From the NCBI GenBank assembly GCA_944390005.1, contig CALXOJ010000012.1:1-55834 (forward strand): a stretch of 55,834 nucleotides of DNA. Reading direction: 5' to 3'. The translations under genes were made by a program, and so were the position numbers. The stretch is from an uncultured Spirochaetota bacterium (GTDB lineage: Bacteria; Spirochaetota; Spirochaetia; JAFGXN01). The notes under the pieces were generated by a model, which did not search any database, was not told the DNA's origin, and worked only from the letters and a program-made list of their open reading frames with translations. Every line of letters begins with the position of its first letter. Position 1 is the first letter of the stretch. Of the stretch, positions 951 through 38,157 are shown piece by piece.

Positions 951-3029
951 ATGAGTCAGCAAAAAGCAGTTATATCCGTTAAACAGGAAAGTTGTGTTAA
1001 TTGTCACAGGTGTATCTCGGTATGTCCCGTTAAATTTTGTAACGACGGGTCGGGTGATTACGTTGAAATCGACAGTGATTTGTGTATCGGGTGCGGACTG
1101 TGCCTGACGGCCTGTCAGCATAACGCAAGAGTCGGTGTAGACGATTTTTCCGCTTTTATGCATGACTTGAAAGCCGGGAAAAAGATTGTCGCCATTGTGG
1201 CGCCGTCGTCGGCAGCTGTCTTTAAAGGCATGGAGGGCGAACTCAACGGCTGGTTGCGGAAGTCCGGTGTCGTTGCCGTTTTCGACGTCAGTTTCGGAGC
1301 GGAACTGACAACAAAATCGTATTATGAATATCTGAAAAAAAATCCCAAAGGACCGGTCATCGCTCAGCCGTGTCCGGCTCTTGTTTCCTATATCGAATTG
1401 TATCTTCCCGAGTTGCTGCCTTATCTTTCGCCGGCAGACAGCCCCATGGCGCATACCATTCATATGATCCGGAAATTTTATCCGCAATATGCCGATTGCA
1501 AGATTGCAGCCATTTCTCCCTGCTATGCAAAACGACGGGAATTCGACGAAAACCATTGCGGTGATTACAATGTCACAATGAGTTCGCTTGTTAAATATTT
1601 CGAAGCCGGAAAGATTAATCTGAAATCGTATCCGAAAATAGCTTACGAAAATCCGCCGGCCGAACGCGGCGTTTTATATTCCAGTCCCGGCGGCTTAATG
1701 CGCACAGCCGAGCGTTTTGATCCTCAATTGAGAAATGCAACAAGAAAGATCGAGGGGCAGCCGGCCGTTATTCACTATTTTGGGGAACTTGCATCGCGAT
1801 TAAAAAGCGGGAAAACGGTTCCCTATCGTCTGATCGATTGTCTGAACTGCGAACGGGGTTGTAACGGAGGTCCGGGAACGGCAGACAACGGGCACGATAT
1901 GGACGAGACCGAGCAGTACGTGGAACACCGTATGCAGAAGAGAAAGGACTATTGGAAACGGCAGGCGTACAGTGAAAAGAAAGCTCTGAAAAAATTAGAC
2001 GAGATCATATCCGCCTATTGGCATGAGGACTTGTATTTACGAAAATATACCGACAGAAGCAGTATTTTTGCCGAAAAAGTCAAAATTCCGACGGAGGAAG
2101 AAATCGAAGCGATTTACAAAGAGCTTCGGAAAGATACCGAGCGGGACATTCTAAACTGCAGTTCCTGCGGTTATAACAGCTGCCGCGACATGGCCGTTGC
2201 CATTTTTAACGGAAAGAACAAAAAAGAGAATTGCTCCCATTACGTTATCAGACAAATGGCGGATGTGCAGGAACAGCTGAGAGAAGAAAAAAATAATATC
2301 AAAAAAGCATCGGATATCAGTATGGATAACCTCAATCGTTCTCATAACGAGATCGATTCATTGACCGGTATTACCGAAGATATGAGCGAAGTCGTTTTGA
2401 CCTCATCCGGTGCGGTCGAGGAAATGATACAAAATATCCGGGCAATCGAGGAAACGATTCACCGCAGCTTCGCAACGACCGGACATCTTGACGAAGCGAC
2501 AACATTGGGAGAGAGCAGTCTGGAAGAAGTCAGTAACCTGGTCGAGGCGGTGGAAGAGCAGTCAAACGGTCTGACGGAAATGAGCCGGATTATTCTGCAA
2601 ATCGCATCGCGCACCAACCTTCTGGCAATGAATGCCGCGATAGAGGCGGCTCATGCCGGTGAAAGCGGTAAAGGATTTGCGGTTGTTGCCGAAGAGATCA
2701 AAAAGCTGGCCGAAATATCGGGAACGGAAGCCAAGAAAATCACAACCGTACTGGAAGATATGAAAGGTCTGATCGATGAGGTCTTTGCCAAATCGGTCGA
2801 TACAAGAAAAGAGTTTCGAAATATTGTACAGCTTTCGGCGGAAGTGAAATCCATCGGTGAAGAAATCAAGATGGCGATGAGCGAGCAAAATATCGGCAGT
2901 CACCGCATTCTCGAATCGATCACAAGATTAAAGAAATCGGAAGAAAAACTGCAGCAGGCTTCCGCTAAAGTTAAAAAAACGGTTGCCAATGTCAAAGAGG
3001 CTGTCCAGAATCTTTCGGAATTCCGGTAA
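951..3029 (+). CDS. soluble [FeFe]-hydrogenase-like sensor fused to a chemoreceptor signalling domain
   Basis: This 692-residue protein has no signal peptide or membrane segment. Residues 12-65 carry two 4Fe-4S motifs ([23 protein letters not shown]). Residues ~75-310 are a divergent H-cluster domain. Its cysteine motifs are PCPA (C141), SPC (C191) and DCLNCERGC (C297, C300, C304), in place of the TSCCPAW/MPC/MACxxGC of catalytic enzymes such as HydA at 33150-34916. A further Fe-S motif (CSSCGYNSC, ~403) leads into a coiled coil. Residues ~460-690 form a methyl-accepting-type signalling hairpin with the conserved tip around 551-600 ([30 protein letters not shown]). Group C/D [FeFe] hydrogenases are regarded as H2 or redox sensors. 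I infer a cytoplasmic receptor that passes this signal to CheA/CheW. The gene is monocistronic, with its own terminator. Confidence 0.85.
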
Positions 3030-4439: not shown

Positions 4440-4551
4440 GGCAGCGCACCGCGCAATTTTTGTTCCCGATTTTAAAAAGAGACTTTGAAACACCGCGTTT
4501 GTGACTCCGAAACGGCCCTGTTTGAGACGGAAAACGGGGAAAAATCCTTGA

Positions 4552-4580
4552 TTGAAAATAAAGAACGATTGTTTTATAAT
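4552..4580 (+). promoter_or_regulatory. promoter of the defence operon
   Basis: TTGAAA (4552-4557) and a perfect TATAAT (4575-4580) are 17 bases apart. The expected start of transcription is near 4587, about 27 bases before the methyltransferase ATG. The promoter lies exactly where the sequence turns AT-rich. Confidence 0.8.
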
Positions 4581-4613
4581 AATAAAAATAGTAGTTTATT
4601 TTGCTGGAGATTT

Positions 4614-5900
4614 ATGATAGACCAAGAAAAAAAAGAATTTCGATATTTGGATCTTTTTGCTGGAGCTGGTGGGTTATCAGAAGGATTTATCAGAGCAGGC
4701 TTTATTCCCGTAGCTCATGTAGAAATGAATACAAGTGCCTGTTATACTCTCAAGACACGTTTGGCATATCATTGGTTGAGTAAGTGTGACAAGGTTGATA
4801 TCTACAAATCTTATCTCGAGGGTAATATATCTAGAGATGAACTATATAAAAATGTCCCAGAAAAGGTGTTGGAATCAGTTATAAATAAAGAAATCTCTGA
4901 TGAAACAATTCCATCTATTTTTTCGAAAATTGATCATGTTTTAAAAGATGGCAATAAAATTGATTTAATTATTGGAGGGCCCCCGTGTCAAGCATACTCT
5001 TTAATAGGGCGTGCGTGTGATGTAAATAAAATGCAAAATGATAAACGAAATTATCTTTTTAGGTATTATGCTCTTTTTTTAAAAAAATATTTACCCCAAT
5101 ATTTTGTTTTTGAAAATGTTGTCGGATTACTATCTGCAAGAGATAAGTCAAAAAAGTATTATTTTGAAGAAATGAAAGACTTATTTCAAGAAAATGGATA
5201 TACAGTTGAGTATAGAATTTTAAATTCAAGTCACTATGGAGTTCCTCAAAATAGAAAAAGAGTAATTCTTGTGGGTAAAAAAGGGGGGGATGATAGCAAT
5301 TTTTACCCAATCCCAGAAGAATGGATAACCAATATAACTGTTTCGGAAATATTAAGAGATTTGCCAAAAATAAAGGCCGGACAAGGTAGCGTTTTACCTT
5401 GTAAAACAAATGAAAATTGTTCATCTTGGCTTTATGAGGCAGGAATTGAAAATAAAAGTCTTCCGGTTACATGGCATCAATCAAGACCAAACAATGAACA
5501 AGATTTAGAAATATACAAAAAAGCAGTTGAAAGCTGGAATAATGGGCATCAGCGTTTAAATTATAATGATTTGCCAGAACATTTAAAAACTCATAAAAAC
5601 AGGCACTCTTTTACTGATAGATTTAAAGTAGTTGCGGGGGATTTGCCTTATTCACAAACAATAATGGCTCATATTGCAAAAGATGGTCACTATTATATAC
5701 ATCCTGATATAAATCAAAATCGTTCTTTAACACCAAGAGAAGCAGCCAGATTACAAACTTTTCCTGATGATTATTTTTTTGAAAGTGATAGCGGGAAATA
5801 TAGTCGAACAGAGGCTTTCAGACAAATTGGTAATGCAGTTCCTGTTTTGTTGGCCCAAAAAATAGCAGAAAAATTAAAGGAAAAAATGAGATATGAGTAA
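4614..5900 (+). CDS. DNA (cytosine-5) methyltransferase
   Basis: A 428-residue C5 cytosine methyltransferase. Motif I is DLFAGAGGLSEGF near the N-terminus and motif IV is GGPPCQAYS with catalytic Cys125. FENV (motif VI), QNRKRVILVG (motif VIII) and QIGNAVP (motif X) follow in canonical order, with the target-recognition region between VIII and X. ATG 4614 is chosen because CTGGAG precedes it and it lies just downstream of the operon promoter; an upstream in-frame TTG at 4485 would start before the promoter. Its stop overlaps the next gene by eight bases. In this context it should mark host DNA against the McrBC-like pair downstream. An A6G7 run at 5277-5289 inside the gene is a possible slippage site. 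The gene is strongly AT-rich, unlike the flanking chromosome. Confidence 0.95.
   Translation: MIDQEKKEFRYLDLFAGAGGLSEGFIRAGFIPVAHVEMNTSACYTLKTRLAYHWLSKCDKVDIYKSYLEGNISRDELYKNVPEKVLESVINKEISDETIPSIFSKIDHVLKDGNKIDLIIGGPPCQAYSLIGRACDVNKMQNDKRNYLFRYYALFLKKYLPQYFVFENVVGLLSARDKSKKYYFEEMKDLFQENGYTVEYRILNSSHYGVPQNRKRVILVGKKGGDDSNFYPIPEEWITNITVSEILRDLPKIKAGQGSVLPCKTNENCSSWLYEAGIENKSLPVTWHQSRPNNEQDLEIYKKAVESWNNGHQRLNYNDLPEHLKTHKNRHSFTDRFKVVAGDLPYSQTIMAHIAKDGHYYIHPDINQNRSLTPREAARLQTFPDDYFFESDSGKYSRTEAFRQIGNAVPVLLAQKIAEKLKEKMRYE
5277..5289 (+). repeat. A6G7 homopolymer run inside the methyltransferase gene
   Basis: Six A then seven G encode Lys-Lys-Gly-Gly-Asp. Gain or loss of one base would truncate the enzyme before motif X. 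Seven Gs is short for a phase-variation tract, so this is only a candidate. Confidence 0.4.
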
Positions 5901-8046
5901 AGGTGTTTTTCAGATAAGACCGGCTGGTCGCCATATATTGACAATCGGAAGGGATTTAATTCAAGATCCATATGCAGCTGTTGTGGAGTTGGTTAAAAAT
6001 GCTTATGACGCAGATGCGACTCATGTAAAAATCAGTTTTAAAAATCAAGGTTCGACGCTACAAGTTCAAGTGACAGATAATGGACATGGGATGACGGAAG
6101 AAATAATTACCAACAAATGGATGGTTCCATCGACGGACGATAAAAGAATACGTAAGACTAGTCCTAAAGGCAGAATAATGCAAGGGCGCAAAGGCATAGG
6201 TCGATATGCTGCCTCTATATTGGGGAACGAATTATTATTGGAAACAGTTTCTGAGATATCTCGTCAGAAAACCACTTTATTAGTAAATTGGCATGATTTT
6301 GAAGCTGCCAAATATCTGTCAGATGTAAATATACTAATCGAGACAACTGACACGAATGAACCCCACGGAACAAGAATTTTAATAACAGGAGAGAGAGACT
6401 TTCTTGAAGAATGGACTGAAAAACAGTTTTTAAATTTAAAACGTGAATTAAAAAAATTGATGACACCTTTACAGTACACAGAAACAACAAACAAGCGGGA
6501 TTTTGTCATTTTGTTGGATATTTCCGGATTCGATTCAATGGATACTGTAAACGAACCAATAGAACCATTCCCTTTATTGGCATTATTTGATTATAAGATT
6601 TCCGGAACAATACAAGAAGATGGAACAGGAAATTTAAACTATGAAATTCAAAAAGTAAAAAATGCTGAAAGTGAACTTATCAAATTTGATTATAAAAATC
6701 CAACCAAATGCGGAAAAGTTTCTTTTGATATCAGAGTATTTGATAGAGAATCAGAATCTATAGAAAAACTGATTAAAAGAGGACTGAAAGATGATTCCGG
6801 TAATTATATAGGTAAGCTCGATGCCAGGCGTCTTTTAAATGAAAATAATGGAATAGGTGTTTACAGAAACGGGTTTCGAATTAGACCATTAGGGGATCCT
6901 GATTTTGACTGGCTCGAATTAAATAAAGAAAGAGTACAGAATCCATCAAAAAGAATCGGCTCTGACCAGGTTATTGGTTTTGTAAATATAGAAAATGAAG
7001 ACAGATCTGGTCTGATTGAAAAAAGTGCCAGAGATGGATTAAAAGAGAATACAGCATATGAAGCATTACGGGATTTAACAAAAGCAGTGATTTCTCAATT
7101 AGAGGAACGGCGGTATATTTATAGGAGCAAAGCAGGAATCAGCCGCAAAACATTGAAGATAGAAAAAGAATTTGAGAAATTATTTTCATTTGATATATTA
7201 AAAAAATCAATACAAGGATTTTTAAAAAAAGGGAAGGTAAATCCTGCCATCAGTAATGCTATTATTAATGCAATTGATGAAAAAGAAAAAGAGCAAAATT
7301 CTGTCTCACAATCTTTACGGGATACGATTGCTATTTATCAGGGACAAGCTACAATGGGAAAAATTGTAAATGTTGTAATACATGAAGGGAGAAAACCGTT
7401 AAGTTTTTTTAAAAATCAAATACCGCTTTTTAAGTTATATTTTGATAAATATATTAATGGAAATGAAAATGTTCTTCCTGAATTATACAATAAAATTGAT
7501 AAAATTACAGAAAATGCAGATTTTTTACAATCAATTTTTAAGAGAATTGATCCATTAAGTTCAGTTAAACGAGGTGAGAAAAAAAATATAAATATTCTAT
7601 CAGAAATAAAAAGTTGTTTTGTTGTATTTAAATCAGAATTGAACAATATTTCTTGGAGTGTAGATTCTTCAGTAAAAAATGATATTGTAAATTTCTTATG
7701 CTGGAAACAGGATATTTATAGTATATTTACCAATTTAATCGAGAACAGTATTTTCTGGATAAATGAAAAAAAATGTTTACAAAGGAAAATTTCAGTATTT
7801 ATTAAAGTACTGAATAATGAAATAGAATATATAGACTATAAAGATACGGGACCTGGAATAGAAAAACACTTAATTGAAAGCGAGGTTATTTTTGATCCGG
7901 AATTCACTACAAAAACAACCGGTACAGGAACAGGGTTGGGATTAAGTATTGCAGGGGAAGCTGCCAGACGTTGTAATTTTGAACTTAAAGCGTTTTATTC
8001 CGAAACAGGAGCTTATTTCAGATTGGATAAAAAGGAGAAAAGATAA
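5893..8046 (+). CDS. dual GHKL ATPase: Hsp90/MORC-like N-terminus and histidine-kinase-like C-terminus
   Basis: A 717-residue protein with two Bergerat-fold ATPase domains. The N-terminal one has ELVKNAYDAD (N box, Asn36), DNGHGM (Asp62) and GRKGIGR (~98-104), as in Hsp90, MutL and MORC proteins. It is followed by a long transducer-like region. At residue 497 the sequence VVIHEGRKPLSF has the H-box pattern H-E-x-x-x-P-L. An N box (NLIENS, ~614-619), a G1 box (DTGPGI, 651-656) and a G2 box (GTGTGLGLSI, ~677) follow, so the C-terminus is a histidine-kinase catalytic core. There is no membrane segment. The start overlaps the methyltransferase stop by eight bases and the receiver gene abuts its own stop. 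I infer a cytoplasmic sensor kinase acting on the receiver protein. The composition is AT-rich like its partners. Confidence 0.85.
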   Translation: MSKGVFQIRPAGRHILTIGRDLIQDPYAAVVELVKNAYDADATHVKISFKNQGSTLQVQVTDNGHGMTEEIITNKWMVPSTDDKRIRKTSPKGRIMQGRKGIGRYAASILGNELLLETVSEISRQKTTLLVNWHDFEAAKYLSDVNILIETTDTNEPHGTRILITGERDFLEEWTEKQFLNLKRELKKLMTPLQYTETTNKRDFVILLDISGFDSMDTVNEPIEPFPLLALFDYKISGTIQEDGTGNLNYEIQKVKNAESELIKFDYKNPTKCGKVSFDIRVFDRESESIEKLIKRGLKDDSGNYIGKLDARRLLNENNGIGVYRNGFRIRPLGDPDFDWLELNKERVQNPSKRIGSDQVIGFVNIENEDRSGLIEKSARDGLKENTAYEALRDLTKAVISQLEERRYIYRSKAGISRKTLKIEKEFEKLFSFDILKKSIQGFLKKGKVNPAISNAIINAIDEKEKEQNSVSQSLRDTIAIYQGQATMGKIVNVVIHEGRKPLSFFKNQIPLFKLYFDKYINGNENVLPELYNKIDKITENADFLQSIFKRIDPLSSVKRGEKKNINILSEIKSCFVVFKSELNNISWSVDSSVKNDIVNFLCWKQDIYSIFTNLIENSIFWINEKKCLQRKISVFIKVLNNEIEYIDYKDTGPGIEKHLIESEVIFDPEFTTKTTGTGTGLGLSIAGEAARRCNFELKAFYSETGAYFRLDKKEKR

Positions 8047-9126
8047 ATGAATGTTTTACTTGTGGAAGATAATCTGTTAGATGTGGAATCATGTCGAGAG
8101 TATGCAAAATTAATTGGAAAAGATATGGAAATAATTGTTGTCAACTCTGTAGAAGATGCTGCTGCCCAATTATCCAAAAACGATATAGATGTTGCAATTA
8201 TTGATATAAGATTAGGTACACGTGGAGGAGAAGGAAATGATGTAGTTAAGAACATGAGAGATTTGGCGTTACGGATTCCGACAGTTGTACATACAGGAAC
8301 GCCGGGATTGGTAGAAGAAGATGTGTCAATTCTCAAAATCTATACAAAGGGCGAAGTTGAATATGGTGATATTTTACGTTACCTTTATTCAGTATATGAG
8401 ACTGGAATAACCAAAATATTAGGGAAAAAAGGTTTCCTAGAGAAGGAAATAAATAAATTTTATCGTGATGTATTTCTTAAACAAAAAGACATATGGATAA
8501 AAAAAGTTTCTGAGAATTCAGATTCAAAGATGATAAGGGAATCTCTTTTAAGAGTAACTTTATATCATTTAGAACAATATTTGGAAGTTTTATCAAACAC
8601 TCCTTTTTATGAAGAGTTCTATTTATACTGCGCAGATTCTGAGTATCATACAGGATCTCTACTTATTGATAATAAAACAAAAAAAAGTTATATAATCATG
8701 TCTCCGGAATGTGATTTGAAAATACGGGAAGTGAAAGGAAAGCAAAAAAGAAATATAGAATATATTACAATGTGCGAAATTGATGCGATTGAGTCGTGTG
8801 GGTTCATATTAAGGGATAATATAGTTAAAGATATCTCAAACCTGCAGAATCACCCGTTGTTTGGAAAATTGACAAACACAAAAGGCTCTTGCCATTGGAT
8901 TCCTCCAATAGATGAATTTGACGGGGGATTAATAAATTTTACAAAAATCATAACTCGCAAAGAAGATGACATAAGGAATTCTTTTAAGTTGGAACAGTTT
9001 AGAATTTCTCTCCCGTATATAAAAAATATACTTGCAAGATTTTCAGCATATTATGGTCGTCAAGGACAACCAGATCTGGATATAAAGCCATACCTATGTA
9101 GGTTAGATAAATTAATACAGTCATAA
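8047..9126 (+). CDS. receiver-domain protein with uncharacterised C-terminal domain
   Basis: A 359-residue protein. Residues 1-115 form a response-regulator receiver: acidic pocket E7/D8, phospho-acceptor D53 in AIIDIR, Thr83 and Lys101 in the switch positions. There is no DNA-binding domain. Residues ~120-359 are a domain I cannot name. They have conserved-looking points IIMSPECDL, TMCEID, CHWIPPID, GGLINF and FSAYYGRQGQPD, whose Cys, His and Arg could be catalytic or metal-binding. ATG 8047 follows AAAGGAGAAAAG and directly abuts the kinase stop, so the two are surely co-translated. In the locus it sits between the kinase-like gene and mcrB, so phosphorylation may gate the restriction pair or release an effector. 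That function is inferred only. Confidence 0.8.
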   Translation: MNVLLVEDNLLDVESCREYAKLIGKDMEIIVVNSVEDAAAQLSKNDIDVAIIDIRLGTRGGEGNDVVKNMRDLALRIPTVVHTGTPGLVEEDVSILKIYTKGEVEYGDILRYLYSVYETGITKILGKKGFLEKEINKFYRDVFLKQKDIWIKKVSENSDSKMIRESLLRVTLYHLEQYLEVLSNTPFYEEFYLYCADSEYHTGSLLIDNKTKKSYIIMSPECDLKIREVKGKQKRNIEYITMCEIDAIESCGFILRDNIVKDISNLQNHPLFGKLTNTKGSCHWIPPIDEFDGGLINFTKIITRKEDDIRNSFKLEQFRISLPYIKNILARFSAYYGRQGQPDLDIKPYLCRLDKLIQS

Positions 9127-9166
9127 TCAATTAGCGGTATTATTCATTGAAGGATGTGGGAACAAT

Positions 9167-10624
9167 ATGAGAGAACTACATTTAGATACAAATGCAAAAA
9201 GAGCAGCAAAAGAAATATTTGATATGCTCTATCATATTGATAAGTTTCAGTCAATAATTCGTCTTTTTCAGTGTGATACAAATATCAAGATAGATACTTC
9301 AGAGCTTGGATCGCCAAACTATTTAAGGTATGTATTTGTAACAAGTTCTTCCAAAATGTATAATAACACAATACGTACATTTACGGAAAAAGATTATAAA
9401 ATTACAGTTAATGATGAAAATATTGTTTGCCGGTTGACGACACAATGGTACAATTTTGATGTAAAATATGGTACATCCGGCGACAGTAATTATTTGGATG
9501 CTGTCAAACAACTTGTAAATAAATATTATAATGGAATCTTGCATATTGAAAGTGATTATAAAATTACATACGTAGAATTTAATTCTCAAATAGGAATTAA
9601 AAACGCAATAAAATTTGAAAATCATTTTATTGATATTCCCCCCCGTTACATCACCGCCCTTCTTGCCAAACCGTTTGTTATTCTAACGGGAAATTCGGGA
9701 ACGGGGAAAACCCGTATAGCCAGGCGGTTTGCCGAATATCTGAAAAAAGAAAACGAAATCGGGGAAAGCAACATTCTCATCGTTCCCGTGGGTGCGGATT
9801 GGACAGACAACACAAAGATTTTGGGCTATTTCAATCCTCTGGCCGATGACGGGGCGGGTGTTTATGTCAAAACGGAAATTTTCCGGTTTTTGGAACGGGC
9901 AAATGCCAATCCTCAAATTCCTTTTTTTCTGATTTTGGATGAAATGAATCTTTCCCATGTGGAACGGTATTTTTCCGATTTTTTGAGCAAAATGGAAATT
10001 CCCGGCAGTGTGTTTACAATTGACGGTTACGGAACCCTGCCTTATCCGAAAAACCTCTTTGTAACGGGAACCGTCAATATTGATGAAACGACTTATATGT
10101 TCAGTCCCAAGGTTTTGGACAGAGCCAATGTCCTTGAATTTAAGCCGGAAAAGGATTCTGTTTTGACTTCTCTGACTGCAGAAATGAAAGAAGAGTCTTT
10201 GGCAGCAGAGCCCGGCATGGCGGAAGGTTTTTTGCAGTTGGCCGAAAAAATCCGCAATGCACCGGCAACGGATTATAACAATATTGATTTTACTGCTGCG
10301 GAACCGATTTTATCGGACCTTTACGATATTTTGCAAAAGGCCGGTTTCGAATTTGCTTTCCGGACTGTTAAAGAAATCCGTCAGTATCTGATTGCTGCTT
10401 ACGAATTGGCAGAGGAAAAGGAAAGTTTCACTCTGAACGGGCATCTTGATATTCAGATTTTGCAGAAAATCCTTCCCAAAATTTACGGAAACCGTCAGCA
10501 GGTAGGCACTTTGCTGGAAGAACTCAAAGCCTTTTTTGAAAAAGAAAATTTTCAAAAAAGTTTGCAGAAAGTCACTCAAATGGCAGAACGGTTAAGCCGT
10601 TTTCAGTTTGTCAGCTTTGTCTAA
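9167..10624 (+). CDS. McrB-like AAA+ GTPase/ATPase, restriction motor subunit
   Basis: A 485-residue protein with an N-terminal region of about 157 residues (no family recognised, the usual place of the DNA-recognition domain) and an McrB-type AAA+ module. The module shows Walker A GNSGTGKT (175-182), Walker B FFLILDEMNLSHVERYFSDF and the sensor segment TGTVNIDETTYMFSPKVLDR, close to the McrB signature. It should translocate DNA and activate the nuclease encoded next. Base composition changes within the gene: 9541-9600 has 13 G/C in 60, 9661-9720 has 28 in 60. The break is near 9638, at a C7 run, between the two domains. The next gene starts five bases after the stop. Confidence 0.9.
   Translation: MRELHLDTNAKRAAKEIFDMLYHIDKFQSIIRLFQCDTNIKIDTSELGSPNYLRYVFVTSSSKMYNNTIRTFTEKDYKITVNDENIVCRLTTQWYNFDVKYGTSGDSNYLDAVKQLVNKYYNGILHIESDYKITYVEFNSQIGIKNAIKFENHFIDIPPRYITALLAKPFVILTGNSGTGKTRIARRFAEYLKKENEIGESNILIVPVGADWTDNTKILGYFNPLADDGAGVYVKTEIFRFLERANANPQIPFFLILDEMNLSHVERYFSDFLSKMEIPGSVFTIDGYGTLPYPKNLFVTGTVNIDETTYMFSPKVLDRANVLEFKPEKDSVLTSLTAEMKEESLAAEPGMAEGFLQLAEKIRNAPATDYNNIDFTAAEPILSDLYDILQKAGFEFAFRTVKEIRQYLIAAYELAEEKESFTLNGHLDIQILQKILPKIYGNRQQVGTLLEELKAFFEKENFQKSLQKVTQMAERLSRFQFVSFV
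9638..9644 (+). repeat. C7 run at the domain and composition boundary in the mcrB-like gene
   Basis: Seven Cs encode the Ile-Pro-Pro-Arg junction ahead of the AAA+ module. They mark the point where very AT-rich sequence turns into genome-like sequence. It is a possible recombination point or slippage site. Confidence 0.45.
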
Positions 10625-33149: not shown

Positions 33150-34916
33150 TTACTTTTTGTACGTCGGCCGCGATACGTAATGCGTGTGAAGAAGTTTATG
33201 GGCTTTATGCGACGACGGTTCTCCGAAGAAATCTTTGTAAATTTTTTGAATGTCGGGATTTTGATGCGATTTGCGGAATTCGCATTTTTTATCATCCGTG
33301 TAGAGCCCGTTGATTCGTTTAGCACGAATTTCATCTTCTGTTCCATACGGCTGTCCGCCGCCGGCAATACAGCCGCCTTTGCACGCCATGACTTCGATGA
33401 AGTGGTACGGCAGCTCCTTTCCGTTTTCTCTTGCGTCGCGGACTTCCTGCAGCAGCGTCTGAACATTTTTCAGTCCGTGGGCCACTGCCACACGCACCGG
33501 GGTTCCTTTTACATCGACGGTTGCCTTTTTGATTCCTTCCATACCGCGGACGCAGGTGAAATCCACCGCTTTTTCGGACAGCTCCTCTTTAGTGACGAGG
33601 TAATACGCCGTTCGCAAAGCCGCTTCCATAACGCCGCCGGTCACGCCGAAAATGGTCGCCGCGCCGGTGTATTGACCGATGGGGCTGTCAGCTTTTTGCG
33701 GTTCGATATTTTTAAAATCAATTCCGAATTGCTTAAACAACCGTGCCAATTCCCGCGTTGTAAGAACCAAATCGTTGTCCTGGCATCCGCTGGAAAACAT
33801 GTCTTCGCTGCGTTTGATTTCCTGTTTTTTTGCCGTACACGGCATAATCGAAACCGAGAAGATTTTTTTCGGATCCAATCCTGCGTTTTGCGCATAATAG
33901 GTTTTCGTAATGGCGCCCTGCATCTGCTGCGGAGATTTAGCGGTGGAAAAATTCGGAATCATGTCGCAGGCATACTTTTCCATGTATTCGACCCACGCCG
34001 GACAGCAGGAGGTAATCAGCGGCAGATCCTTGTTTTCCGTGAATCGACGGACGAATTCGGTTCCTTCTTCCATGATAGTCAGATCGGCTCCGAAGTTGGT
34101 GTCGAAAACGGTGTCGACGCCGATGGCTCTTAACGCGGCATAGATTTTTCCCGTCGTCACCTCACCCGGTTCCATGTCGAATTCTTCGCCGATAGCTACG
34201 CGGACAGCCGGCGCAATCTGAGCGATAACCGTCAGCTCCGGATTGCGGATTGCTTCAAGCAGTTTGGCGGTTTCATCCAACTCATAGATGGCGCCGACCG
34301 GACAGTGAGCGGAACATTGACCGCATTTGATACATGGCGTTTCGTTGAGAACGATGTCTCCGGCGCCGGCAATTCTCGTTTTTTCACCGCGTCCGATGAA
34401 TTCCAACGCCCAAACGTTCTGCAGCTGCTGACAAACTTGGGCACAGCGGCCGCACTGAACACATTTCGACGGATCCAAAACAATGGCGCCGGTTGAATCG
34501 TCTTTCGGCATGTTTTTGACGTTGCGGGCAAACGGAATTTCTCTGATACCGAATTCGGCTGCCAGCGTTTGCAGTTCGCAGCTGCCGTTTCGGCCGCAGG
34601 TCAGACACGATTGCGGATGATCGGCCAAAATCATTTCGATAATTGTCCGTCGGATTTTGTTTAATTCGGGATCATGGGTGATGTAATTTTCGCCTTCAAC
34701 ACATTCGGTTGCGCAGGCGCGAACCAGTTTTGGAGAAATGCCGCGCGCGTTGGAAACTTTAACAACACAAATGCCGCATGCCGCCCAGGCGTCCAAATCG
34801 GGATGAGCGCACAAAGAAGGAATTTTGACACCGGCTTGTTTGGCGGCCGCCAAAATATGAGTTCCTTTTTCAACCGTAATCGGTTTTCCGTTGATTTGAA
34901 TATTGACAGTACTCAC
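33150..34916 (-). CDS. hydA: [FeFe] hydrogenase catalytic subunit HydA of a trimeric NADH/ferredoxin enzyme
   Basis: A 588-residue enzyme. The N-terminus is a 2Fe-2S ferredoxin domain (CAHPDLDAWAACGIC), then the His-Cys 4Fe-4S cluster (HPQSCLTCGRNGSCELQ) and two 4Fe-4S motifs (CVQCGRCAQVCQ, CIKCGQCSAHCP). The H-cluster domain has all canonical motifs: TSCCPAWVEY (C304/C305), SIMPCTAKKQE and EVMACKGGCIAGGGQP. The start is GTG 34916 with AAGGAG in front, ten bases after the hydB stop. It makes or consumes H2 with electrons from NADH and reduced ferredoxin, in a complex with HydB and HydC. Confidence 0.95.
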   Translation of the reverse strand: MSTVNIQINGKPITVEKGTHILAAAKQAGVKIPSLCAHPDLDAWAACGICVVKVSNARGISPKLVRACATECVEGENYITHDPELNKIRRTIIEMILADHPQSCLTCGRNGSCELQTLAAEFGIREIPFARNVKNMPKDDSTGAIVLDPSKCVQCGRCAQVCQQLQNVWALEFIGRGEKTRIAGAGDIVLNETPCIKCGQCSAHCPVGAIYELDETAKLLEAIRNPELTVIAQIAPAVRVAIGEEFDMEPGEVTTGKIYAALRAIGVDTVFDTNFGADLTIMEEGTEFVRRFTENKDLPLITSCCPAWVEYMEKYACDMIPNFSTAKSPQQMQGAITKTYYAQNAGLDPKKIFSVSIMPCTAKKQEIKRSEDMFSSGCQDNDLVLTTRELARLFKQFGIDFKNIEPQKADSPIGQYTGAATIFGVTGGVMEAALRTAYYLVTKEELSEKAVDFTCVRGMEGIKKATVDVKGTPVRVAVAHGLKNVQTLLQEVRDARENGKELPYHFIEVMACKGGCIAGGGQPYGTEDEIRAKRINGLYTDDKKCEFRKSHQNPDIQKIYKDFFGEPSSHKAHKLLHTHYVSRPTYKK

Positions 34917-34926
34917 TTTTTTCTCC

Positions 34927-36711
34927 TTATCTCTTTTCGATGGCGTCAAACTTGCAGTTCTTCATACATTCGCCGCACTTGATACACTTCGTTTGGTCGA
35001 TCGTATGCTTTTGTCTGACTTCGCCGCTGATGCAGTTGACCGGACATTTACGGGCGCAGAGCGTACATCCTCGACAGTTGTCGTTGATGGTGTACGTAAT
35101 CAGCTTCTTACACTTTCCGGCGCGGCATTTTTTCTCATTGATATGCTCCAAATATTCGTCATAGAAATAATGGAGGGAAGAGAGAACCGGATTGGGTGCG
35201 GTTTGTCCGAGTCCGCAGAGAGCAGCGCGTTTCATTGCTTCACCGATCTCTTTCAGCTGTTCCAAATCTTCCATAGTGCCTTTGCCTTCGGAAATTTTGG
35301 TCAGGATGTCGTAAAGTTTCCGCGTTCCGATTCGGCACGGCGAACATTTTCCGCACGACTCTTCGACGCAGAATTCCTGGTAGAATTTCGCAACGTCGAT
35401 GATACAGTCATCTTCATCCATGACGATCATTCCGCCGGAACCCATCATTGAACCGGCTGCGACAAGATTGTCGAAGTCAATCGGCGTGTCGATCATTTTG
35501 GCGGTAATTACACCGCCGGAGGGACCGCCCGTCTGTACGGCTTTAAACGCTTTGCCGCCTTTGATTCCGCCGCCGATATCGTAAACGATTTCGCGCAGCG
35601 TCGTTCCCATCGGAACCTCTACCAAACCGGAGTTTTTGATTTTTCCCGTCAGAGCGAAAACTTTCGTTCCGGAGGATTTTTCCGTTCCGATGGATGCAAA
35701 CCATTTTCCGCCTTTTGTGATGATGACCGGAACATTGGCCCAAGTTTCAACATTGTTGATAACCGTCGGTTTTTTCCAAAGACCGCAAACGGCGGGAAAC
35801 GGCGGTTTCGGAGTCGGCATACCGCGTTTTCCTTCAATGGATGCAAGGAGGGCTGTTTCTTCACCGCAGACGAAAGCGCCCGCCCCCAAACGAATTTCAA
35901 TGTCGAATGAGAAATCGCTGCCGAGAATATTTTGCCCCAACAGTCCGTATTCACGCGCCTGCGCCATGGCGATTTCCAGCCGTTTGATAGCCAGAGGATA
36001 TTCGGCGCGGATGTAAATAAAGCCTTGATTGGCGCCTACAGTGTAACCGGCAATCGCCATGGCTTCCAAAACAGAGTGCGGATCGCCTTCAAGGGTACTG
36101 CGGTCCATATACGCGCCCGGGTCGCCTTCATCGGCGTTGCAGACGATGTACTTGACGTCGCTCTCTACCTGTTTTGTGAAATTCCACTTCATCCACGTCG
36201 GGAACCCCGCGCCGCCGCGGCCGCGCAGACCGGAGATCTTCATTTCTTCGATCACTTGATCCGGCGTCATTTCAAACAGGACTTTTTCCAGTGCGGCGTA
36301 ACCGTCGCGGGCGATGTACTCATCAATTTTTTCGGGATCGATTAAACCGCAGTTGCGCAAAACGATGCGCATCTGTTTCTGGTAAAATCCAATCTCTTCA
36401 GGAACGGCAGAGGTCTTCCCCGATTCATCAACGTAAGCCAACCGTTTGACAATACGCCCTTTAATCAGCGTCTCTTTGACGATTTCTTCCGCGTCTGATG
36501 GTTTGACTTCAACGTAGAACGCGTCTTCCGGCAGAACTTTGACAATCGGTCCTTTTTCACAGAAACCGAAACAGCCGGTTTTTACAACTTGAACGTCGTG
36601 CTCCAGTCCGGCGTTTGCCACTTCGGTTTTCAGGTTTGTGAAAATGTCATCGGCTTTTGATGATTCGCAGCCTGTACCGCCGCAAACCAATACGTAGTGT
36701 TTATATGCCAT
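34927..36711 (-). CDS. hydB: hydrogenase subunit HydB (NuoF-like, FMN and NADH site)
   Basis: A 594-residue flavoprotein. Residues 1-90 are a thioredoxin-like 2Fe-2S domain (CGGTGCESS, TGCFGFCEKGP). The NuoF core has GRGGAGFPTWMKW and GAGAFVCGEETALLASIEG for NADH and FMN, then SLBB and the 4Fe-4S motif ESCGKCSPCRIG. Two C-terminal 4Fe-4S motifs (CRGCTLCARKCP, CIKCGECMKNC) complete the layout of electron-bifurcating HydB. It accepts NADH electrons and shares them between hydrogen production and ferredoxin. The ATG at 36711 follows the small 2Fe-2S gene by 13 bases. Confidence 0.95.
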   Translation of the reverse strand: MAYKHYVLVCGGTGCESSKADDIFTNLKTEVANAGLEHDVQVVKTGCFGFCEKGPIVKVLPEDAFYVEVKPSDAEEIVKETLIKGRIVKRLAYVDESGKTSAVPEEIGFYQKQMRIVLRNCGLIDPEKIDEYIARDGYAALEKVLFEMTPDQVIEEMKISGLRGRGGAGFPTWMKWNFTKQVESDVKYIVCNADEGDPGAYMDRSTLEGDPHSVLEAMAIAGYTVGANQGFIYIRAEYPLAIKRLEIAMAQAREYGLLGQNILGSDFSFDIEIRLGAGAFVCGEETALLASIEGKRGMPTPKPPFPAVCGLWKKPTVINNVETWANVPVIITKGGKWFASIGTEKSSGTKVFALTGKIKNSGLVEVPMGTTLREIVYDIGGGIKGGKAFKAVQTGGPSGGVITAKMIDTPIDFDNLVAAGSMMGSGGMIVMDEDDCIIDVAKFYQEFCVEESCGKCSPCRIGTRKLYDILTKISEGKGTMEDLEQLKEIGEAMKRAALCGLGQTAPNPVLSSLHYFYDEYLEHINEKKCRAGKCKKLITYTINDNCRGCTLCARKCPVNCISGEVRQKHTIDQTKCIKCGECMKNCKFDAIEKR

Positions 36712-36724
36712 TTGTCTCTCCTTT

Positions 36725-37114
36725 TTATTTCATGATGTCGCCGGCGGGACGGTCGATGATGTGTCCGCTGACCAATTTCTTTCCGAGAATGTGATCGTCA
36801 ATCAGTTGATCCACCAAAGCGGCATCCACTTTTCCGTAGATGGTATCCGGCATTCCCGGCATTTTGATTTCCACCGTCGGTTCGGAGTGACACAGCCCCA
36901 TGCAGCCGGTTTGTTTGACCACCGCATCGGAGATTCCTTTTTCATCAAGTTTGGCAATGAAGGCATTTAAAACGTTCTTTGCTCCGGCGGCAATTCCGCA
37001 GGTTCCCATGCCGATTACGATGAAAATTTCCTTTCCGTGAGTTTGACGGGTGTCAATTTGTTTTTTTCCGGCTTCGCGCATTTTGCGCAAATCTTCTAAT
37101 GTTAATTTCGCCAT
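36725..37114 (-). CDS. thioredoxin-like 2Fe-2S protein of the hydrogenase operon
   Basis: A 129-residue protein with a thioredoxin-like ferredoxin domain; GMGTCGIAAGAK and TGCMGLCHSEP hold the four cluster cysteines. It resembles the N-terminal domain of HydB and the NuoE fold and is often seen next to hydB in fermentative bacteria, probably as an extra electron-transfer subunit. AAAGGAG precedes the ATG at 37114. Its first 62 bases overlap the end of the upstream ATPase gene in another frame. Confidence 0.85.
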   Translation of the reverse strand: MAKLTLEDLRKMREAGKKQIDTRQTHGKEIFIVIGMGTCGIAAGAKNVLNAFIAKLDEKGISDAVVKQTGCMGLCHSEPTVEIKMPGMPDTIYGKVDAALVDQLIDDHILGKKLVSGHIIDRPAGDIMK

Positions 37115-37670
37115 TTTTTATCTCCTTTATTTCCGATTCTTGATCTGTCAGAAATTGTTTGAGAAGTGCCAACGCCTGAGCGTCTTCGAACGAACCGAGC
37201 GCTTCTTTCAGTTCCGAACGGATAACCGTGTATTCGGCCGCCTTTTTTCCCGTATAACAGCGGTGAATAACCAGTTCATAGTTTCCGTTGAAAATCATGG
37301 TTGAAAAAAACGCCAGCGGCAAATCGCCGATCTTCGGTAAGTCGATGTGGTTGACGTTCAAATGAAACGCTAAACGCGTGCCTTCGCCTTTTTTTGATTG
37401 AATCGACCATGTGCCGTCCGTCATATCCACCGTTTGAAGCAGAAACGGCAGTCCGAGTCCGACTTTGCGGTGTTTGTGCTTCACCCCGTCGGTATAAAAC
37501 GGGTCTGTCGCCCGCTTCAGCTCTTCATCACTCATGCCTTTTCCGTTGTCTTCAATGCAAACGTCCAAAAATTCAGGCGTTTCGTTAACGGTCAGAACAA
37601 TTCGGGAAGCGTTTGCCTCCACCGAGTTTTGCAGACAGTCGACAATCATGTCGCCGATTGAATCGTGCAT
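37053..37670 (-). CDS. GHKL ATPase domain protein of the hydrogenase operon
   Basis: A 205-residue soluble protein. IVDCLQNSVEANASRI is the N box, EDNGKGMSDEEL the G1 box and KVGLGLPFLLQ the G2 box of the histidine-kinase/Hsp90 ATPase fold; there is no phospho-acceptor histidine domain. Such stand-alone ATPases sit between hydC and hydB in many HydABC operons and have no established role. I start it at ATG 37670, four bases after the hydC stop, with AGGAGA in front. The 3' end overlaps the next gene by 62 bases, unusually long for this compact operon. Confidence 0.8.
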   Translation of the reverse strand: MHDSIGDMIVDCLQNSVEANASRIVLTVNETPEFLDVCIEDNGKGMSDEELKRATDPFYTDGVKHKHRKVGLGLPFLLQTVDMTDGTWSIQSKKGEGTRLAFHLNVNHIDLPKIGDLPLAFFSTMIFNGNYELVIHRCYTGKKAAEYTVIRSELKEALGSFEDAQALALLKQFLTDQESEIKEIKNGEINIRRFAQNARSRKKTN

Positions 37671-37674
37671 TCTC

Positions 37675-38157
37675 CTATTCCGAGAAATTAGCCAGAATTT
37701 CGGGCATCTGCTCGGGCAGAACCTTTCCGAAAACCTCGTCTCCAATCACGACAACGGGTGCCAACCCGCAGCAGCCGACGCAGCGAACCGATTCCAACGA
37801 AAACATTCCGTCTTCGGTGACTCCTTTGACGGGAATATTCAGGTGTTTGGCTGTTTCGTCCAAAATCGCCTGACCGCCTTTGAGGTAGCACGCAGTTCCC
37901 ATGCACACCTGAATCACGTTTTTTCCCGGTTTGTTCAGTTTAAAAAAGTGGTAGAATGTGATGACTCCGTAGATTTTCGCCAGCGGAATGTCGAGCATTT
38001 CGGCGACCTTCATAGCCGCCCCCCTCGAAATGTACCCAAATTCGCTTTGAACCTTGTGGAGAATCATAATCAGATTTCCCGGCTTTTCCTTCCATTCGGC
38101 GATAAAGTTTTCCAGTTCTTTTGAGAAAACCGTATCCGTTTTTTGCTCTGTGGGCAT
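37675..38157 (-). CDS. hydC: hydrogenase subunit HydC (NuoE-like)
   Basis: A 160-residue thioredoxin-like 2Fe-2S subunit. HKVQSEFGYIS and IYGVITFYHFF match the NuoE helical N-terminus, and the cluster cysteines are in CMGTACYLKGG and CVGCCGLAP. It passes electrons between HydB and the rest of the complex. It is the first gene of the operon, has GGAGG in front of the ATG, and lies downstream of a clear promoter. Confidence 0.95.
   Translation of the reverse strand: MPTEQKTDTVFSKELENFIAEWKEKPGNLIMILHKVQSEFGYISRGAAMKVAEMLDIPLAKIYGVITFYHFFKLNKPGKNVIQVCMGTACYLKGGQAILDETAKHLNIPVKGVTEDGMFSLESVRCVGCCGLAPVVVIGDEVFGKVLPEQMPEILANFSE

Follow-up and report, generated by a model that had tools for sequence, protein, structure and literature searches.

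We analysed a stretch of 55,834 nucleotides (contig CALXOJ010000012.1, assembly GCA_944390005.1; hereafter the window) from the genome of an uncultured Spirochaetota bacterium, and describe here a gene for a 692-residue protein in which ferredoxin motifs, the H domain of [FeFe] hydrogenases and the signalling domain of a methyl-accepting chemotaxis protein (MCP) occur together (Table 1). An earlier sequence-only reading of open reading frame 951-3029 had proposed this combination in one cytoplasmic protein, and Pfam searches and the lack of a membrane segment confirmed it. The motifs quoted in that reading (PCPA at residue 140, SPC at 189 and DCLNCERGC at 296) are present and contain the ligands C141, C191 and C300/C304, whereas the fourth Fe-S site (C403/C406/C411/C428) had not been mentioned. 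Scores for Fe_hyd_lg_C, PF04060 (FeS) and MCPsignal lie above the curated cut-offs, which excludes chance matches.

Domain order, ligands and soluble nature

Conservation was assessed in an alignment of 101 H domains and in a second alignment that comprised 35 MCP-fused relatives at full length (H domains 47-63% identical). With an Fe_hyd_lg_C domain that carries the four H-cluster cysteines in L1, L2 and L3, the protein belongs by sequence to the [FeFe] hydrogenase superfamily, and no relative had lost any of these ligands. Each of the 16 cysteines predicted as Fe-S cluster ligands is present in 34-35 of the 35 relatives, with 34-35/35 for the eight ferredoxin cysteines and 35/35 for those of PF04060. 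An extra cysteine three residues ahead of C300, C297, is invariant as well (35/35). Pro140, Ser189 and Leu298 occupy the positions of CpI C299, M353 and M497, respectively, and these substitutions fit the pattern of low-activity sensory enzymes. The counterpart of Glu289 in the sensory hydrogenase TamHydS is Asp296.

The signalling part aligns across the hairpin tip with Escherichia coli Tsr (1qu7) and with receptor 2ch7. Tip residues T555, L558, N561, A562, I564, E565, A566, A567, A569, G570, G573, G575, F576, V579, E582, L586 and A587 are invariant or nearly so among relatives, and the protein thus has both the signalling domain and the conserved CheA/CheW-binding tip that define an MCP chemoreceptor. 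Transmembrane segments and HAMP, which are typical but not obligatory for such receptors, are both lacking: the Pfam search found neither HAMP nor another membrane-linked domain, and no transmembrane helix was indicated by hydropathy (highest 19-residue Kyte-Doolittle mean 1.17, no segment above 1.2). We therefore take the protein as a receptor of the cytoplasmic class. Modelling with AlphaFold from the single sequence gave a result of low confidence (mean pLDDT 40.8, pTM 0.32, H domain below 40), and the PDB contains no close relative (best match 80 bits).

The start of the gene lies 951 bases from the contig end and a low-GC island follows downstream, as could be said in favour of an assembly artefact or a decayed gene. 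We regard this explanation as negligible, as the gene is a single open frame without stops and with intact ligands, and it is refuted by full-length relatives of the same domain order (about 690-730 residues) in dozens of genomes. A chimeric origin was rejected in view of these full-length relatives.

Table 1 Features of the gene for the MCP-fused hydrogenase-like protein (positions in the window)
Feature	Position	Strand	Evidence
Whole gene, 692 residues: ferredoxin domain, H domain, Fe-S domain, coiled coil, MCP signalling domain	951..3029	+	
Two [4Fe-4S] ferredoxin motifs, Cys 15/18/21/25 and 45/48/51/55, residues 9-61	975..1133	+	Fer4-type matches (Pfam, residues 6-61)
H domain (Fe_hyd_lg_C), residues 77-308	1179..1874	+	Pfam, 122 bits (cut-off 22.1); 124 bits in genome-wide search
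C141 in L1 motif AQPCPAL, H-cluster ligand (= CpI C300)	1371..1373	+	Invariant, 35/35
C191 in L2 motif, H-cluster ligand (= CpI C355)	1521..1523	+	Invariant, 35/35
L3 motif C297-L-N-C300-x3-C304, ligands C300/C304 (= CpI C499/C503)	1839..1862	+	Invariant, 35/35
C-terminal Fe-S domain PF04060, C403-x2-C406-x4-C411-x16-C428	2151..2237	+	Pfam, residues 401-429, 32 bits (cut-off 23); conserved 35/35
Coiled-coil connector from Fe-S domain to signalling domain	2241..2501	+	One long helix, residues 431-509, in low-confidence model
MCP signalling domain, residues 518-661	2502..2933	+	Pfam MCPsignal, 94 bits (cut-off 34.6); aligns with Tsr 1qu7 and with 2ch7
Hairpin tip, predicted CheA/CheW contact	2604..2720	+	Residues invariant or nearly so in relatives

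Phylogenetic placement and relatives in Spirochaetota

The H domain had been called divergent, correctly so: the protein scores 141 bits with TIGR04105 (monomeric, group B; cut-off 450) and 95 bits with TIGR02512 (group A; cut-off 406). In a maximum-likelihood phylogeny that covered 76 H domains of Spirochaetota, group A (support 100/100), group B (96/89), PAS-type proteins (100/98) and the clade of the 692-residue protein (100/100) each fell on one side of a branch. Membership of the catalytic groups A and B is contradicted by the profile scores, by the separate clade and by an L1 motif (AQPCPAL) that is not of the TSCCP type. Placement with the PAS-type proteins (C1/C3) is contradicted by the separate clades and by Ser instead of Gly at CpI position 353. 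Several group A relatives in the phylum (L105, L108, L109, L110 and others; L numbers label the loci compared) have TSCSPGW in place of TSCCPGW in L1.

In HydDB, [FeFe] group C2 is labelled 'Chemotactic (putative)', and its members might sense H2 and signal through methyl-accepting chemotaxis proteins (PMC5037454), a description repeated in a study of acetogenic Clostridium (PMC9431212). The 692-residue protein, a sensory-type [FeFe] hydrogenase linked to a methyl-accepting domain, agrees with this description in its architecture, and on that level we saw no feature that separates the two. The sequence-only reading named PAS and kinase/phosphatase domains as the usual partners of such sensors, which was incomplete in that the MCP-linked class is already listed. 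The architecture is thus not new, being catalogued as HydDB C2 and common in the same phylum, and the protein is a real and intact further member of this kind, experimentally untested as far as the literature searched shows.

Two characterized sensory hydrogenases offer the closest comparison. TamHydS from Thermoanaerobacter mathranii (group D, M2e) shares with the 692-residue protein two ferredoxin clusters, the H domain, a Cx2Cx4Cx16C site, the absence of PAS, Ser at CpI 353 and Leu at CpI 497 (PMC8163306, PMC11803613), but has no described fused output domain, Ala instead of Pro at CpI 299 and Glu289 instead of Asp. Ser189, a hydroxyl residue at CpI 353, and the lack of a detected PAS domain agree with group D of the TamHydS type (PMC8163306), for which Glu is also expected at TamHydS positions 252 and 289; the counterpart of position 289 is Asp296. 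TmHydS from Thermotoga maritima (group C, M2f) likewise has a sensory-type H domain, two N-terminal clusters and a four-Cys cluster before the output, but its output is PAS and its residues at CpI 299/353/497 are Ala/Gly/Ser as opposed to Pro/Ser/Leu (PMC8163306, PMC10055695, PMC11803613). PAS-type proteins of the phylum fall in a clade separate from that of the 692-residue protein. The Cx2Cx4Cx16C spacing of the C403-C428 site is identical to that of group C/D HydS (PMC8163306).

Of 393 genomes of the phylum, 89, which belong to 46 of 168 genera, contain a relative at E <= 1e-50; many of these relatives are full length and have the same domain order. Treponema sp. Tb.RUG.506, a metagenome-assembled genome (MAG) from rumen, encodes a full-length relative with 54% identity over the whole length. 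When named genomes were scanned with this protein alone, only three Treponema MAGs were retrieved, all via the MCP half, and one of them encodes a full-length relative. At one locus (L054:5455-9600) paralogues lie in tandem, and the MCP part is shorter in one while the other has its full length.

Of the 49 rows scored in the clade, 43 have an MCP domain at the end. The remaining outputs are GGDEF-EAL (L060, L066), histidine kinase (L059, L061) and CheA-like HATPase (L057, L067), and the tree requires at least four changes of output domain. Such recurrence of one sensor module on GGDEF-EAL, histidine-kinase and CheA-like outputs is as expected of an input module. No neighbouring gene was conserved across 25 loci of relatives, a pattern expected for a stand-alone receptor. 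A tentative proposal, which we consider possible but doubtful, is that the clade forms a separate lineage of sensory H domains, distinct from PAS-type group C and with its own second-sphere set (Pro at CpI 299, Ser at 353, Asp at 495 and an invariant extra Cys beside L3), that it serves as a plug-in H2 or redox input for MCP, CheA-like, histidine-kinase and c-di-GMP outputs in spirochaetes, and that the 692-residue protein would be a true soluble H2 chemoreceptor.

The GGDEF-EAL fusions (ferredoxin-H-FeS module at L060:4907-7552 and L066:4768-7359, by Pfam; L153:1-2886, read from translation only) are candidates for an H2- or redox-controlled c-di-GMP enzyme in spirochaetes. At L057:3585-6260 and L067:3084-5876 the sensor module precedes a HATPase at the C terminus, and L067 alone also gave an Hpt match, below threshold; these proteins may be CheA-type kinases joined directly to a hydrogenase sensor.

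The 692-residue protein itself lies inside a set of 25 rows that come nearly all from another family (support 99/98). The sequence from its own family stands elsewhere in the tree, and uniting the two was rejected (p-AU 0.016). The gene is also absent from the second genome of the genus, which is 98% complete. The gene was probably acquired horizontally.

Genome context and putative function

The source genome (G000; 1.95 Mb, 97% complete) has four H-domain genes. One encodes HydA of a HydABC operon (NCBIfam group A6, 781 bits) and another a monomeric enzyme of group B (TIGR04105, 530 bits); the third product, a ferredoxin-H-FeS protein of 577 residues, adjoins a SpoIIE-type phosphatase and fits HydDB C3, and the fourth is the MCP-fused protein. 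All three maturases are encoded: HydE (321 bits against a cut-off of 254.6) and HydG (504 against 312) are found together on contig 8, and contig 2 carries HydF (433 against 326). The chemotaxis complement comprises two CheA at separate loci, both with a CheW-like domain, three further CheW-domain genes (one a CheW-CheR fusion), CheR, CheB and six MCPs including the hydrogenase fusion; flagellin and FliM are encoded as well.

The analysis supports what the sequence-only reading proposed, a soluble protein that carries in cis an H domain of the sensory type and a chemoreceptor output. That reading named two findings that would refute it, loss of the H-cluster ligands in homologues and a genome devoid of chemotaxis genes, and neither applies. 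We consider it likely that the protein is a cytoplasmic chemoreceptor with a low-turnover [FeFe]-hydrogenase sensor domain that tunes CheA and flagellar behaviour to H2 or redox. H2, or the balance of H2/H+ and ferredoxin redox state, would shift the redox state of a presumably occupied H-cluster, and electrons would move via the two N-terminal [4Fe-4S] clusters, the C-terminal [4Fe-4S] cluster that heads the coiled coil, or both. The redox change might then affect how the hairpin packs in the MCP dimer; the hairpin tip, if embedded in a CheA-CheW array, would tune CheA activity such that flagellar behaviour tracks H2 or redox.

The main alternative is a general cytoplasmic sensor of redox state or electron donors that works via the ferredoxin and PF04060 clusters, with an H domain that performs no H2 chemistry or merely holds a redox cofactor. 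The first Cys of the proton relay (CpI C299) is Pro, the clade has Asp where the proton path of group D has Glu289, and the ligands of the other Fe-S clusters are conserved equally well as those of the H-cluster, all of which this alternative would accommodate. In TamHydS, the E289D exchange lowered H2 evolution to about 70% and H2 oxidation to 3% or less (PMC10407848). The four H-cluster ligands are, however, kept across distant relatives, and TmHydS and TamHydS also lack the group A proton path, yet react with H2. Retention of HydEFG in the genome points the same way, though HydABC would require HydEFG anyway. Weighing these points, we judge a sensor devoid of H2 chemistry to be unlikely.

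An H2 sensor could also act through one of the two CheA systems on gene expression or another output and not on swimming. The separate loci of the two CheA, the sister proteins with GGDEF-EAL or histidine-kinase outputs, and TamHydS and TmHydS, which are presumed regulators of gene expression, are compatible with such a role. Flagellin and FliM are encoded, however, both CheA have a CheW-like domain, and the conventional MCP tip makes coupling to the motility array the simplest reading, so that an output other than motility appears very unlikely.

Several observations nonetheless count against a chemoreceptor for H2. The protein has no strict methylation consensus and only two relaxed sites, at residues 533 and 642, and the signal could be intracellular redox instead of H2. 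TamHydS and TmHydS turn over H2, and a weak catalytic role is conceivable here too. The congener genome without the gene indicates that it is not essential to the lineage, and the literature searched contained no report that an MCP-fused hydrogenase had been tested biochemically or for its effect on behaviour.

H2 is a main currency among fermenters, acetogens and methanogens in guts and rumen. Sensory hydrogenases of termite-gut Fibrobacteres were proposed to orient cells in H2 gradients (PMC4704652), and hydrogen sensors of termite treponemes appear in the title of Ballor et al. 2012 as cited in PMC4070709. Taxis to H2 through a hydrogenase receptor has been proposed, and we found no demonstration of it in the literature searched. 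The 692-residue protein, with a CheA pathway and maturases in one small genome, is a clean candidate for testing it; its value lies in testability, spread and diversity of outputs, the architecture itself being on record.

Hydrogenase loci and surroundings

HydABC (33150-38157, minus strand) is present in the window, as had been noted in support of H2 or redox taxis, but the link is weak given a distance of 30 kb from the MCP-fused gene and the lack of conserved neighbours in relatives; an operon link was rejected because of this distance. Two frames lie between HydB and HydC on the same strand: 37053-37745 encodes a HATPase-domain protein, and the small frame 36725-37114 is 2Fe-2S thioredoxin-like. 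A second hydrogen cluster on contig 15 of the genome (L020:271-8646) comprises a group B hydrogenase, a SpoIIE-type phosphatase and a PAS-group HydS-like protein, and continues with proteins that resemble, by eye, AdhE and the redox repressor Rex.

Downstream of the MCP-fused gene, positions 4485-10624 of the window are likely an acquired restriction/defence island. The GC content is 0.29-0.35 between about 4500 and 9500 as compared to 0.44-0.49 before, and the stretch encodes a C5 DNA methyltransferase (PADLOC DrmMII, 563 bits), a protein matching PADLOC PDC-M26A and a 717-residue HATPase-like protein with weak type II restriction matches.
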